DNA of 64,000 bases from NCBI GenBank assembly GCA_945861715.1, contig CAMAVK010000001.1:248001-312000 (forward strand), given 5' to 3'. Below the pieces are notes generated by a model. The model was not told where the DNA came from, searched no databases, and saw only the letters and a list, made by a program, of their open reading frames with translations. Made by a program: the position numbers and the translations under genes. This document shows positions 21,191 to 58,020 of this stretch, one piece after another (the first letter of the stretch is position 1; each line of letters begins with the position of its first letter). Origin of the DNA: Candidatus Woesearchaeota archaeon (lineage in GTDB: Archaea; Nanobdellota; Nanobdellia; Woesearchaeales; GW2011-AR9).

Positions 21191-22702
21191 ATGGACGATT
21201 CAGCGCGAAAACTCATTTCTGGCTCTACAATAGTATTTATCGGTTTTGCTATAGGGGGTTTATTCTCTTATCTATTTCGAATAGTTCTTGCTCATCACCT
21301 TCCAGTGTATCAAATTGGTCTTTATTTTTCTATAATCAGTTTTATTATTTTTCTCACCCTATTTCAAAAAACGGGTACAGAGCTCGCTCTAGTCCGTTTT
21401 TTAAGTATGTGGGACCATGAAAAAAAATACTACCATATCCGTAGTGCCCTCACTTCCTTAATAATCTTCCAAACTATTTTCGGGCTTATCTTTATTCTAG
21501 CTGTCTGGTTTTTTTCTCATTGGCTTGCTATCAATTATTTCAAAGATTTCTCCGCCGCCTCATACCTTATCACCGCTTCCATTCTCTTTTTGCTCCTTAT
21601 CCTTGAGGATATACCTCGAAGGATTTTTCAGGGATTTAATAACATGAAATGGTTTGCTTCCCTAGAAGCCATAAAAGCAGCCGCGTTAATTTTATTCACT
21701 CTCATCGGTTTTTCAATATATCAAACCGTATGGGTTCCTCTGGTAGCATTTCTGTTGGCAACACTTCTAGTGGGTATAATTGGTCTAATCATTATCAAAA
21801 AGTCATACCCTAAAATAAATAAACAAAATAGCCCAAAACTGGCTGAACATCCATCTTCAACTTCAATATTCAAAGAAGTATACATGTACGGCCTTCCGCT
21901 CATTTTCTTTGTTATTGGAAATAAAGCAATTGAGACATTGGATTTACTTATGCTCACTTATTTTTCAACTCTTGATCAAGTTGGTATCTATAGTGTTGTT
22001 CTACCCACTGCCGCAATTGGACTATTTATTTATCGACCAATTTCCGTAGCAATTATGCCCATCACCACGAAGCTCTGGATTCAAAACGAAAAAGAAAAAC
22101 TTCTCAATTTAATGAATATTATCTACAAATATCTCATAATTATCATGATCCCCATTGTCACTCTGTTTATTCTTTTTTCACAAGAAATACTTTACTATTT
22201 ATTTGGGCCAGCGTATCTCCCAGGTACACTTCCTCTACAAATAATATTGTGTGGCATACTGTTTTATGGACTGGCTAACATCAATATTAGCATGCTAACT
22301 TCAATGAATCATTCAAAAAATGCAGGAATGTTTATGATTTATGCGACCATAATAAATGCTATATTAAACTTCATACTTATACCCCTATTTGGTATGTTAG
22401 GAGCGGCTATTTCTACAACTATTGCATACCTTGCCACATTTGTAATGTCATATCTATCTATTAAAAAAATAAACCTTTCAACAAAAGCCACCGTTCCACT
22501 TCCCATATTGCAATTGACAATTCTATTTATTCTAACCGCCATACCTTTATTTTGGTTCTTATCCGAACAAAACACCGCCTTATTGCCAAAATGTATATTT
22601 GCATCCGTGTTAATTACCATCTACATAGTGATGCTCGCCATCTTGCGCCTATTCACTTTAACAGAATTGAAATCAATCATTGCATCATTAAGAAATCAAT
22701 AG
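21191..22702 (+). CDS. Oligosaccharide flippase (Wzx/RfbX-like, MOP superfamily)
   Basis: At 503 aa with about 12-14 membrane segments, it matches polysaccharide-repeat exporters that flip polyprenyl-linked oligosaccharides across the membrane. The N-terminus RKLISGSTIVFIGFAIGGLFSY and the mid-loop Pro/Arg pair in EDIPRRIFQGFNNMKWF are typical, as is FLIPLFGMLGAAISTTIAY in the second half. It fits the surrounding glycan genes. A TTTTAAAA box at about 21160-21167 lies 27 nt upstream, so it has its own promoter. Its stop codon TAG (22700-22702) overlaps the first two bases of a large palindromic element. Confidence 0.88.
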   Translation: MDDSARKLISGSTIVFIGFAIGGLFSYLFRIVLAHHLPVYQIGLYFSIISFIIFLTLFQKTGTELALVRFLSMWDHEKKYYHIRSALTSLIIFQTIFGLIFILAVWFFSHWLAINYFKDFSAASYLITASILFLLLILEDIPRRIFQGFNNMKWFASLEAIKAAALILFTLIGFSIYQTVWVPLVAFLLATLLVGIIGLIIIKKSYPKINKQNSPKLAEHPSSTSIFKEVYMYGLPLIFFVIGNKAIETLDLLMLTYFSTLDQVGIYSVVLPTAAIGLFIYRPISVAIMPITTKLWIQNEKEKLLNLMNIIYKYLIIIMIPIVTLFILFSQEILYYLFGPAYLPGTLPLQIILCGILFYGLANINISMLTSMNHSKNAGMFMIYATIINAILNFILIPLFGMLGAAISTTIAYLATFVMSYLSIKKINLSTKATVPLPILQLTILFILTAIPLFWFLSEQNTALLPKCIFASVLITIYIVMLAILRLFTLTELKSIIASLRNQ

Positions 22703-22993
22703 AGCACTTTGCAAACACAAGATAAAGCAACGACTTTATCGGTGCACAGAAATACAACAGTATTTCTTGTGAAGCAGTTTGTCACATTTTAATTGCACCA
22801 CGAGGTGCAAGAAACACAAAAACTATTGTGTTTCTGCACAGAAAGGAAGAATATCCTTTCTTGTGCAAAAATAAGCTTAAACTGCGTCGTTGCAAAGTGC
22901 TCTTTGATAACAAGGAAATCAAAGATTTCCTGTGCAGAAAGTGGTCGCTGCCTCTTTCTTGCACTTTGTCTAATTTTTATGAATTATGCAAAG
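22701..22993. repeat. Modular multi-hairpin palindromic element, copy 1
   Basis: An outer perfect 14-bp stem (22701-22714 with 22890-22903) encloses several arms. GATAAAG/CTTTATC is at 22721-22740, CACAGAAATAC with GTATTTCTTGTG at 22745-22771, and GCAGTTT/AAACTGC at 22774-22885. Nested inside the last are TTGCACC/GGTGCAA, GAAACACAA/TTGTGTTTC, and TGCACAGAAAGGA with its partner to 22867. To the right are AGGAAATC/GATTTCCT (22913-22931), GTGCAGAAAG/CTTTCTTGCAC (22932-22964) and CTTTG/CAAAG (22964-22993). Copy 2 at 57826-58009 shares the backbone. The element begins inside the flippase stop codon. Confidence 0.85.
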
Positions 22994-23151
22994 TTCTCAA
23001 TAATATTCTCACTTGAGAATTTTCCTCCCCGTGACCTGCTTAAACCCCGCCCCGATATTTTTTCCAATCCCCAAACTAACCAATCAGCATGGAAACACCC
23101 ACATCACAGTTCCATTACCTTTTTATAACCAGCATTGCAAAATAAAATGGA
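22994..23151. other. Rest of the gene-free stretch before the cytidylyltransferase
   Basis: After the palindromic element there is C-rich, A-rich spacer without strong features. A TTTTATAAC box at about 23121-23129 is centred some 27 nt before the ATG at 23152 and is the likely promoter of the next gene. Confidence 0.5.
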
Positions 23152-47888: not shown

Positions 47889-50800
47889 CTATTCAGACAT
47901 CTTATCCTTTAACAAGATAATATGATATCCAAATTGACTTCTAACGAGCTCAGAAATGTCTCCCTTATTCAGAGCAAACGCGGCATTTTCAAACTCTTTA
48001 ACCATTGTGCCACGCTCAAACTTTCCTAATTCACCACCCGATGGTGCAGAGCCAGGATCTTCCGAATATTTCTTCGCATACTCTGCAAAATTATCTGCAT
48101 TCAACTCAGACCGAATTTTCGTTGCAAGAGACAGAGCTTCAGCCTCAGGATGTTTATCAAACGCAATTAAAATATGTGCTGCCTCAACCTTTTCAATTGG
48201 AACGAAAAAAACCTGGTTCTTTTGCTGTGTACAGGAGTAATCAACGGTCCATGTTGAAATCTTCCCTCCTGAAAATTGTCGAACTCTATCAAAGTTTGTA
48301 AAACAGGATAATCCATGTCCCTCAAAGAAAAACAACTTTGTAAACACAGATGTTGCTAAATTTGGATCAGCTAAAATGACCCCATATTGTCCATCCCCGG
48401 TTGGCAATAAAATAACCCCAAAATTAAACACATTACCATCCGTCTTCTTCTCAACAATTCCATCTTTATTGGCATACACCAGCACTCGCGGTGCAAAAGT
48501 TTTGCCATCTTGTGATAGAACCGTGGCATCGCCTGAGCTGAGATTTATCTTCATATCCAATCTTCCTTGCTGAAGTGACATAGGACAATCAAGCATTTCT
48601 CCATTTTTAGTACAACCTGACAACCCGCTCAAATACGATGGCCACACCGCAATCCAATTATCAGCCGTTGTCGTTTGCATTTCTTGATAATATTGGGTTG
48701 CATCCGTCTCACTCACATTGTAATCACGTTGAAGCAAAGCCACTGCATCTTTTTGATTTAACTTCGACGCACGTTGATACATTTCAGCACGTTTAAAATC
48801 CCAACCTCCAAAGTGTCCCCACACGCCTGCCTTACCAATCATATCTTCAGAAGTAATGAAATAATCAGTTGGTGCCGCACAATGCGTGTACTTCAATACT
48901 TCATCAGCTTGCACAGAACTCAATCCAACTTCCATCAATCGAGTATGCGCCGCACTTACGTTCATCGCAACAATTTGATTTAAAGTTTCAACCTCAAAAT
49001 GGGTATCGTTCAAAAACGAATCAAACGTTTCAAACGCTTTATTTTGTCCACAATTAAGCATTCGTAAAATCCCGGTGCTCTGCTTTTCATCAGATACATA
49101 CAAGGCATGACCAACCCAATATGCATCATACCCAACTTGTGCTGCCCCATCAAAAGTAACGGGGCGATTTCCAATTGCTTTAAACCAATGTCCAAAGTCC
49201 CACCACGAGTTAATAACTGCTTTTGTGTCGCCTTCCACATTTATTTTATGTAACGTGTTATACCATTGATCATTCATGGCAGGTAGCGATCCATAAGCTT
49301 GTTTATACCCCGCTTGAGCTGGAGCGATAAACAGCAAAGAAAAACCAAGAAAAATAATAGCCATAGCAAGCGTTTTATTAATTTTCATGGTGGTATGAGC
49401 CTTTTCTGAAAGGAACATCCATATCACTCCTACTGCAATTCCAACACCCAATGAAAATGCTGGTATTACTTGAAGAATGAACCGAACACCTTTTGTTGTT
49501 GCAAATAATGAAGAAACAAGCCACATCGCAAGTAAAAGAGCAATCATATAGTGGCGAGAACCATCTTCACGTTTTCGTAAGCTAAGAATTATTCCTCCAA
49601 TGGCTATAACCAGTAATAACGTCCCTCCTAATTCTGAGACAACTGTTGAAAACGGAGGCACATTAAGTTCAGCAACCGTAGTTCTAATATTTGGCCACAA
49701 TGAAACAGTGGCAACTGACTTTATATTAATAAAACTCATCGGTCCTTTAACTGCATTAATAAAATCAGTAAATGATGAGAGTAGACTAACAAACAACCCA
49801 GTTGAGATCACATACGTTGCCAGTAGAATCCCCGGTGCAGTAACCAAAGATTGCCATTTTTCCTTCAACTGTTTTCGATATTCTATTAATTTGATTCCTA
49901 CCGAGCCAAGAGTTGCTAAAATCAAAAATAGAAAAATATACCACCATCCGCCAATCCAAGCCATACTGAAAAGTCCAGTTGCAAGACCAGCAAGAGCAGC
50001 AAGTACAATCATCCATATTCGAGATCGTTTAATATCATATGCTTCAATCAAAAACCAGGTTATAAGCAATGGAAAAAAGACCGTATACACATCGGTATCT
50101 GATGTTTCACCGGTCGTACGTGCAACATAAAAAGAAGAAACAGCAACTAAAAGAGCAGCATAAAATCCACCTACGTTGTTACCAGAAATCTTTCGTCCAA
50201 TAAAAAAAGCAGGAATGACACTCAATGCAGAAAAAATGGTTCCTATCAAAAAGAATGAAGTCATCGGAGCCACGGTCGCAAAAAAGTTCAAAAACTTATA
50301 CAAAAATGCTCCAAAATACGCATGAAAATCAGATCCCGCGTATCGACCCTCAGGATATAAGAAGTAATCATCCCACGCAACACCATCTTTGAAACTTGTT
50401 CCTTGATACCCATGATCAACCACATTAGAAACCAGTCTAAAATAATGATATGGATCAATTCCTAAAATATACATCACACCAGAATCATCCTGAAATTGTG
50501 ATCTAAATTGCGTCGCAGCTGCAACTCGCTGACTTTCAATCATAGGCCAATTTTCTGTTTGAAACTTTTGCCATTCTGTATTCACCAGCGTGTTCTTATT
50601 CTGGTCAGGTAAATTGGGATACTGTTCAGCAACCTTGGTAGAAATTTGCGATTTATAATAATTCTCAACCGTGGTCGCAGCCCAATCATCAGCCATTGGC
50701 ATCCGCATTGGCATTGTTCGTAAATAAACGGACATACTTATAGTAAGTAGAAGGAGAAATAAAGGAATCATCCATTTTCCATGAGTTTTAAAAAATGCAC

Positions 50801-50969
50801 TCCATGTTCCAGCTCTTGAACCACCTTTGTCATGACCACTCTGAGTTTCATGATGTCCATGCGCTTTACTTTCTTGAGTTTTCGAAGAAAATATCCCTTT
50901 AATTTTGTCTTTTGCCTTTGAAAAATCAATTATTTCTTCATCAGGCTGTGTCGTTTGCTGTGTTGTCAT
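47889..50969 (-). CDS. aglB: AglB/STT3 oligosaccharyltransferase fused to a C-terminal parvulin (PPIC) domain
   Basis: AglB transfers a lipid-linked glycan to Asn-X-Ser/Thr sequons outside the cell. After a charged His/Gly/Ser-rich cytoplasmic tail (1-60) come about 12-13 membrane segments. The catalytic Asp loop is D172 (GIDPYHYFRLV), the second acidic motif is DTD at 291-293, and the sequon-binding WWDFG is 589-593. A soluble domain follows. Residues about 928-1026 are a complete PPIC rotamase: AAHILIAFDKHPEAEALSLA, FAEYAKKYSEDPGSAPSGGE, LGKFERGTMVKEFENAAFAL and RSQFGYHIILLK. The 1026-aa protein would place a proline isomerase at the exit of the glycosylation site. The GT2 gene lies 144 nt downstream. 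Confidence 0.93.
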   Translation of the reverse strand: MTTQQTTQPDEEIIDFSKAKDKIKGIFSSKTQESKAHGHHETQSGHDKGGSRAGTWSAFFKTHGKWMIPLFLLLLTISMSVYLRTMPMRMPMADDWAATTVENYYKSQISTKVAEQYPNLPDQNKNTLVNTEWQKFQTENWPMIESQRVAAATQFRSQFQDDSGVMYILGIDPYHYFRLVSNVVDHGYQGTSFKDGVAWDDYFLYPEGRYAGSDFHAYFGAFLYKFLNFFATVAPMTSFFLIGTIFSALSVIPAFFIGRKISGNNVGGFYAALLVAVSSFYVARTTGETSDTDVYTVFFPLLITWFLIEAYDIKRSRIWMIVLAALAGLATGLFSMAWIGGWWYIFLFLILATLGSVGIKLIEYRKQLKEKWQSLVTAPGILLATYVISTGLFVSLLSSFTDFINAVKGPMSFINIKSVATVSLWPNIRTTVAELNVPPFSTVVSELGGTLLLVIAIGGIILSLRKREDGSRHYMIALLLAMWLVSSLFATTKGVRFILQVIPAFSLGVGIAVGVIWMFLSEKAHTTMKINKTLAMAIIFLGFSLLFIAPAQAGYKQAYGSLPAMNDQWYNTLHKINVEGDTKAVINSWWDFGHWFKAIGNRPVTFDGAAQVGYDAYWVGHALYVSDEKQSTGILRMLNCGQNKAFETFDSFLNDTHFEVETLNQIVAMNVSAAHTRLMEVGLSSVQADEVLKYTHCAAPTDYFITSEDMIGKAGVWGHFGGWDFKRAEMYQRASKLNQKDAVALLQRDYNVSETDATQYYQEMQTTTADNWIAVWPSYLSGLSGCTKNGEMLDCPMSLQQGRLDMKINLSSGDATVLSQDGKTFAPRVLVYANKDGIVEKKTDGNVFNFGVILLPTGDGQYGVILADPNLATSVFTKLFFFEGHGLSCFTNFDRVRQFSGGKISTWTVDYSCTQQKNQVFFVPIEKVEAAHILIAFDKHPEAEALSLATKIRSELNADNFAEYAKKYSEDPGSAPSGGELGKFERGTMVKEFENAAFALNKGDISELVRSQFGYHIILLKDKMSE

Positions 50970-57716: not shown

Positions 57717-57825
57717 GTTAGCTTATTTCTATTTGTTCACTTTTAAAGGTAACTTTGGATTTTACGAAGTTTTCAAAAACCATACCGTAATCAAAATATT
57801 CCAGATCAATTCTAATTTTTAACTT
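57717..57825. other. Spacer between the thioredoxin-fold gene and palindromic copy 2
   Basis: AT-rich promoter-side spacer of the minus-strand thioredoxin-fold gene. Together with the element and the 3' spacer it makes a gene-free stretch of 304 nt. I see no other feature. Confidence 0.4.
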
Positions 57826-58009
57826 AGAGGACTTTGCAAACACAAAATAAAGCAGCGACTTTATTTGTGCACAGAAAGGAAAGCTATCCTTTCTTGTGAA
57901 GCAGTTTGTTACATTATCATTGCACCAGAAGGTGCAAAAATAAGATTAAACGGCGCCGTTGCAAAGTCCTCTTTGATAACTTTGCCTAATTTTTATGAAT
58001 TATGCAAAG
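57826..58009. repeat. Modular multi-hairpin palindromic element, copy 2
   Basis: The outer perfect 14-bp stem is AGAGGACTTTGCAA (57826-57839) with 57959-57972. The arms are AATAAAG/CTTTATT (57846-57865), CACAGAAAGGA with TCCTTTCTTGTG (57870-57898), GCAGTTT with AAACGGC (one mismatch) enclosing TTGCACC/GGTGCAA (57920-57937), and a right-hand hairpin CTTTGCCTAATT/AATTATGCAAAG (57980-58009). It shares the backbone with copy 1 at 22701-22993 but lacks several inserted hairpins of that copy. Read on the minus strand it starts 11 nt after the stop of the GT2 gene. Confidence 0.85.
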
Positions 58010-58020
58010 TTCTCCTTAAA

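Follow-up and report, generated by a model that had tools for sequence, protein, structure and literature searches.

An IS5-type MITE of a Woesearchaeota archaeon with nested hairpin-pair modules and paired changes in its stems

How can two copies of a palindromic element differ in sequence and yet fold alike? The question arises from a stretch of 64,000 nucleotides of a Woesearchaeota archaeon (hereafter "the window", always the whole stretch), in which a sequence-only reading had described a palindrome near position 57,826 (copy 2) as departing from an earlier one (copy 1) through changes that left its stems intact. We asked what the element is, what the changes affect, and which process would keep the stems paired. 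Copy 2 is a MITE, i.e., a non-autonomous small transposon, of the IS5 family, and its 188 bp hold no gene of their own.

This identification redraws the limits of the element, which had been taken to end at 58009: the terminal repeat and the target-site duplication (TSD) place its end at 58014 and its start at 57827, with terminal inverted repeats of 11 bp (Table 1). The 14-bp outer stem described earlier can be seen when counting from A57826, but this A still counts as the final base of the target duplication; the transposon inverted repeat and an internal arm together form the outer stem. The copy 2 region is predicted to fold strongly on both strands (z = −7.7, and −8.8 for the minus strand), as is copy 1 (z = −9.9), and in none of the three cases did any shuffle fold as well. 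A stop codon coincides with the insertion site of copy 1, where the TA of the target duplication and the first G of the element form TAG; a single ORF overlaps this copy, and it is spurious. The extra hairpins of copy 1 are indeed missing from copy 2, with bounds now refined to 22810-22867 and 22912-22964. Elsewhere in the window, 47889-50969 encodes an STT3 oligosaccharyltransferase fused to a parvulin-type peptidyl-prolyl isomerase domain, and this fusion has full-length relatives in other Woesearchaeota.

Table 1. Coordinates of the two MITE copies and their parts within the window.
Feature	Position	Strand	Remarks
Copy 1, same MITE as copy 2	22702-22998	+	297 bp, three modules
TSD AATA of copy 1	22698-22701 and 22999-23002		
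Copy 1 module a	22716-22771	+	site same as copy 2 module
Copy 1 module b (first extra hairpins)	22810-22867	+	GTGCA repeats on flanks
Copy 1 module c (second extra hairpins)	22912-22964	+	position same as modules in L003 and L014
Copy 2, IS5-type MITE	57827-58014	+	188 bp, i.e., 130-bp core plus 58-bp hairpin-pair module; 11 homologous copies in genome
Left target-site duplication CTTA	57823-57826	.	identical to 58015-58018
Right target-site duplication CTTA	58015-58018	.	identical to 57823-57826
Left terminal inverted repeat GAGGACTTTGC	57827-57837	+	ends common to related MITEs and IS5 transposons
Right terminal inverted repeat GCAAAGTTCTC	58004-58014	+	pattern TGCAAAGTTCTC in 16/49 family genomes
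Large hairpin of MITE	57827-57971	+	outer stem 57827-57839 with 57959-57971; fold and pair counts
Inserted hairpin-pair module (arms one and two)	57841-57898	+	excision restores 130-bp core
Hairpin A of module (arm one)	57841-57869	-	loop CAGCGA, bulged A57844; inverted relative to hairpin B
Hairpin B of module (arm two)	57870-57898	+	AGAAAGGA stem, bulged T57895; motif scan and pair counts
Core helix 2	57901-57954	+	57901-57908 with 57947-57954; 3 pairs changed on both sides among copies
Core arm three TTGCACC-AGAA-GGTGCAA	57920-57937	+	100% paired in 9 copies; 3 pairs changed on both sides
Small 40-bp hairpin of MITE	57975-58014	+	similar unit alone at L017

The genome from which the window comes (1.296 Mb, 98% complete) was assigned to Woesearchaeota through the nearest relatives of one of its proteins. 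Oriented alike, its copies of the MITE share the ends GAGnACTTTGC and GCAAAGTTCTC, and perfect 4-bp duplications flank 8 of the 11 (p = 1.3e-5 against cross-paired flanks); among the MITE copies listed for relatives, 19 of 21 are flanked in the same way (p = 3e-16). Two copies, L014 and L009, are degraded. Outside the count of 11 stands a MITE-like copy of 213 bp with the duplication TTTA and different internal hairpins (L139 13854-14066, minus strand, C4 of this genome). The end pattern TGCAAAGTTCTC was rare in a reversed-pattern control, and related MITEs in other genera of the archaeal family, mostly of 108-225 bp, keep the two-hairpin plan. The viral contigs searched held no exact matches.

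A candidate partner was found by starting from the transposase rather than from the MITE ends; no autonomous partner turned up beside sites with the exact MITE end. Among the relatives, the L265 element is an intact IS5 element of 1199 bp that runs from GAGGACTTTGAATAACC to GGTTATTCAAAGTCCTC between two TATA duplications, and the L247 element, whose right end reads CAAAGTTCTC followed by TATA, resembles it; the transposases of the two match NF033581 at 1e-57 and 4e-60. When these elements were compared with the MITE by their ends (CAAAGTCCTC and CAAAGTTCTC, with TATA as duplication), the likeness covered about 10 terminal bases and the duplication and went no further. A search for a DDE_Tnp_1 transposase in the genome of the window found none, and the MITE must thus either be immobile there now or be served by an unseen enzyme. 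A 737-bp "element" of another genome (L159 776-1512, G067) was rejected as autonomous partner: it holds a GTP cyclohydrolase II-like gene and no transposase, with two MITE-like pieces, each TATA-flanked, around the gene.

Arms one and two, previously treated as parts of one folded element, together make up a single inserted 58-bp module. After excision of all modules, the core measures exactly 130 bp in 9 of the 10 longer copies (91 bp in L014), an equality that is partly by construction since module boundaries were set by eye, and the excised cores align without gaps at a mean column identity of 91%. This bears out the earlier proposal that arms are gained and lost whole. The module site at 57841-57898 is empty in four copies of this genome (L004, L005, L008, and L009) as well as in the outgroup MITE L174 from another genus, so the module was probably gained in the lineage studied here; given its presence and absence in both subfamilies of this genome, it was also lost, or else gained twice.

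The module is built of two hairpins placed head to head across a GYRC center, which abut with no spacer. Each consists of a G-YRC foot, a purine-rich stem of 8 or 10 bp, a loop of usually 6 nt, a bulged T, and a closing foot. Among 122 distinct hairpins, the bulged T was seen in 106, the 6-nt loop in 114, the G before the foot in 112, and an abutting inverted partner in 88; across genera, the stem measures 8 or 10 bp and is seldom one of 9. Outside the doublet, base entropy rises sharply to ~1.8-2.0 bits, i.e., near random. Around the modules, a search for target duplications gave inconsistent candidates of 2-5 bp (GTGCA, AC, CA) and no clean one, and a search for GTAG/GTGG or CGTC tags within 10 nt of the hairpins was negative (0 to 10 of 121). 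Overall, the nesting is mutual between MITE and modules and extends to other palindromes: besides IS5-type MITEs, module copies occupy a second palindrome, whose ends are TTTTTCCACCAGTG, and other places, and larger repeats carry many of them along, for instance in G068 and G065.

At L304-L308 (G016), at L309-L312 (G067), and at L012 ~1500-1640 (C2:31483 of the genome studied here), doublets lie in or beside a second palindromic repeat, the ends of which resemble GCTTTTTCCACCAGTG and CACTGGTGGAAAAAGC. The same genome holds, at L015 1400-1660 (C6 near 36000), a deeply nested palindrome ACTCGCC...GGCGAGT with several doublets, adjoining an ORF on the other strand with a sequence like that of a tyrosine recombinase. 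Two MITEs of G012 (L163 1382-1500 and L175 1370-1470) bear whole-inserted hairpin pairs that are unrelated in sequence to the doublet family.

The paired changes were then counted over the genomic copies. In the gap-free alignment of nine core copies, 94.9% of cells pair and 8 of 39 core pairs have changed on both sides; the core covariation score of 0.173, against a shuffled mean of 0.075, was matched by 0 of 500 shuffles, and sliding the partners gave at most 0.02. In five of these eight pairs, the change sets apart one trio of copies (L006, L008, and L009), which amounts to one subfamily split, so that cell counts overstate the number of independent events. Among the five module copies compared, 4 of 22 pairs covary. 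Of the 78 stem columns, 23 are variable, as against 26 of the 52 columns elsewhere.

Two of the changes singled out by the sequence-only reading are present as described, namely GATAAAG/CTTTATC of copy 1 against AATAAAG/CTTTATT of copy 2 in arm one, and TAC/GTA against GGA/TCC at the tip of arm two. The change from C to G at the fifth base of the outer stem and from G to C at its partner is present as well (G57830, with its partner C within 57959-57971), but it concerns the weakest pair, which is C-G, G-C, or T-A in five of nine copies and unpaired in the other four. There, the base is an A, for which the 3′ terminal repeat offers a matching T. Position 57830 is therefore not a clean compensatory pair: it matches the internal arm in five copies, the far terminal repeat in four, and hence one or the other partner arm in all nine.

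Beyond the MITE cores, perfect stems were found in 60 of 76 hairpins for which loop, foot, and bulge were the sole anchors, and a hand count of mismatches in motif-like hairpins gave ~5 GT, ~3 AC, and ~5 other; the large cross-genus hairpin sets were picked partly by structure, and do not by themselves prove covariation. A loop conserved more than its stem would favor recognition over correction, and no such excess was seen in the hairpin comparison. The AGAAAGGA hairpins of the genome studied here carry the loops AAACTA, AAGCTA, and AGAATA, which, relative to the bulge, are exactly the family loops TAGTTT, TAGCTT, and TATTCT in reverse complement.

We next evaluated how far the hairpins extend. 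A covariance model built from 18 of them (R1) matches 41 of 49 genomes of the archaeal family, with up to 80 hairpins per genome. In an order-wide sample, in which few candidates were scored per genome and counts are lower bounds, seven genomes of other families gave one or two weak matches each. In that sample, the hairpins are nearly absent outside the one archaeal family. Of 35 hairpin clusters, 32 are intergenic, one exception (copy 1) lying in the spurious ORF, and most occupy tandem or divergent gaps with no enrichment of convergent gene ends. Long perfect hairpins show no genome-wide excess in the genome studied here, so the signal comes from one motif family and not from general palindrome richness. 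A motif initially defined by a 4-bp foot proved too strict and showed no excess over the Markov control.

The search for a Y1 (IS200/RAYT-type) transposase detected none in this 98%-complete genome, with positive controls. Y1 genes occur in 17 of the 49 family genomes, where they are rarely near hairpins (at L210 and L229 only); hairpin number shows no clear dependence on their presence (p = 0.08), and none was detected in the hairpin-rich genomes G068, G065, G029, and G036. At L210 2030-2350 (G033), which lies downstream of an IS200-type Y1 gene, doublets alternate with repeats of a tRNA-like stretch, GCGCAGGATTGCTAATCCTG.

The reading that we favor, and hold to be reasonably probable, joins an IS5-type MITE mobilized in trans to a nested doublet that would be copied as a single-stranded DNA hairpin, its stems drifting in pairs. 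The MITE part rests on the ends, the target duplications, the copies, and the intact IS5 element of relatives, whose outer ends match and whose duplication is of the same type: an IS5-type transposase would act on the MITE ends in trans and leave the 4-bp AT-rich duplication. For the module, we observe the architecture, the sharp outer boundary, the abundance across the family, and the presence or absence of the unit as a whole, and from these we infer its route of mobility. The doublet would be the replicating unit, recognized and copied as a single-stranded DNA hairpin by a putative enzyme, as is thought for REPIN/BIME in bacteria. Changes in its stems would in that case persist only in complementary pairs, whether because copying fails on a mispaired hairpin or because template switching repairs one arm from the other. 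Template switching may perform part or all of this stem maintenance, which would fit the reverse-complement loops of the AGAAAGGA hairpins. Several results speak against the favored reading: the failure to detect a Y1 gene in the genome studied here and the rarity of such genes near hairpins in relatives, the missing tag, the want of a clean target duplication at modules, the many module copies carried along by larger repeats, and, for the MITE, the negative search for DDE_Tnp_1. A more specific version, which is conceivable but rather doubtful, has the doublet as a REPIN-like unit of the family's own, i.e., a bulged-T doublet of ~58-64 nt replicated as single-stranded DNA by a non-RAYT enzyme, inserting into mobile palindromes and keeping structure over sequence.

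Paired substitutions had been read from the outset as the mark of selection or of templated correction; the paired change is real, and the counts do not separate the two. Correction could be entirely neutral, template switching copying one side of a hairpin and swapping whole tips with no function or recognition involved, and we take this to be a serious possibility, though not the outcome we would expect. It is consistent with changes that come in blocks (the three adjacent pairs of arm two), with transversion-type swaps (G-C to C-G, G-C to T-A) without wobble intermediates, with the inverted loops of the AGAAAGGA hairpins, and with the behavior of position 57830. Template switching has been proposed as a source of such patterns, with inverted loops as its footprint, and few cases with compensatory changes were found (PMC8794818). 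However, the bulged T, the 6-nt loop, and the stems of 8 or 10 bp are kept across genera, while pure correction should erase the bulge, and amplification to 80 copies needs another process.

The doublets could also be true REPINs, mobilized by a Y1 HUH transposase that acted in trans and has since disappeared from this genome. Their inverted arrangement, bulged stems, intergenic dispersion, and copy number are like those of REPIN/BIME, and Y1 genes do occur in the family; this origin is nonetheless unlikely, as these genes are seldom near hairpins and went undetected in the hairpin-rich genomes named above, the GTAG/CGTC tag was not found, and the Y1 enzymes reported from archaea are of the IS200 type only (PMC6006769). 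Selection on the structure as RNA, be it a terminator, a UTR element, or a small RNA, appears improbable: strong predicted folding and covariation would suit it, and folding has been reported for transcripts of prokaryotic MITEs (PMC10969869), but the window gave 0 Rfam matches, wobble is not clearly enriched (GT:AC ~5:3), no strand bias is evident in the few mismatches, and convergent gene ends are not preferred. Nothing points to an RNA-level cause, and the tests argue against one. It is scarcely credible, finally, that the copies never moved and are old segmental duplications with hairpins kept by chance; the degraded L014 and L009 would agree with this, but the perfect target duplications contradict it, and further evidence against it lies in the sharp ends, the insertion sites that differ between copies, and the IS5 element whose ends match.

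The favored combination of a trans-mobilized MITE and a nested doublet has partial counterparts among known systems. Organellar hairpin elements, such as double-hairpin elements and Volvox palindromes, are likewise palindromic repeats that multiply in intergenic DNA; they belong to organelle genomes and are not known to be linked to an IS family. With IS5-family MITEs, the element shares its shortness, lack of genes, terminal inverted repeats, 4-bp AT-rich duplication, ends held in common with IS5, multiple copies, and intergenic position, and differs by the two-hairpin core and the repeated nesting of hairpin-pair modules. DPANN are not mentioned in a review of prokaryotic MITEs (PMC10969869), and our literature search, with most subscription journals outside its reach, found no description of such elements in Woesearchaeota. 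REP dimers within longer palindromes are on record in A. variabilis and H. neapolitanus (PMC3733652), whereas the host palindromes here include a transposon with target duplications and the hairpins are essentially those of one archaeal family.

The closest likeness in the module itself is to REPIN/BIME, for which doublets, compensatory changes, and a clover fold have precedent (PMC3116915): both have a head-to-head doublet as unit, dispersed intergenic copies, compensatory stem changes, and genome-specific variants. The present doublets differ in being archaeal, in having no GTAG/CGTC tag and no RAYT found linked to them, and in hairpins that abut over a shared GYRC center. The doublet would work like a REPIN but lacks two REPIN hallmarks, the tag and the cognate Y1 enzyme. 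Since REPIN-type doublets have so far been tied to RAYT transposases and to bacteria, an abundant doublet of this layout in one archaeal family, with no linked RAYT, would stand apart as a mobile unit preserved in structure and not in sequence, and its dozens of copies per genome form a natural data set on whether perfect stems arise by selection or by template-switch repair.
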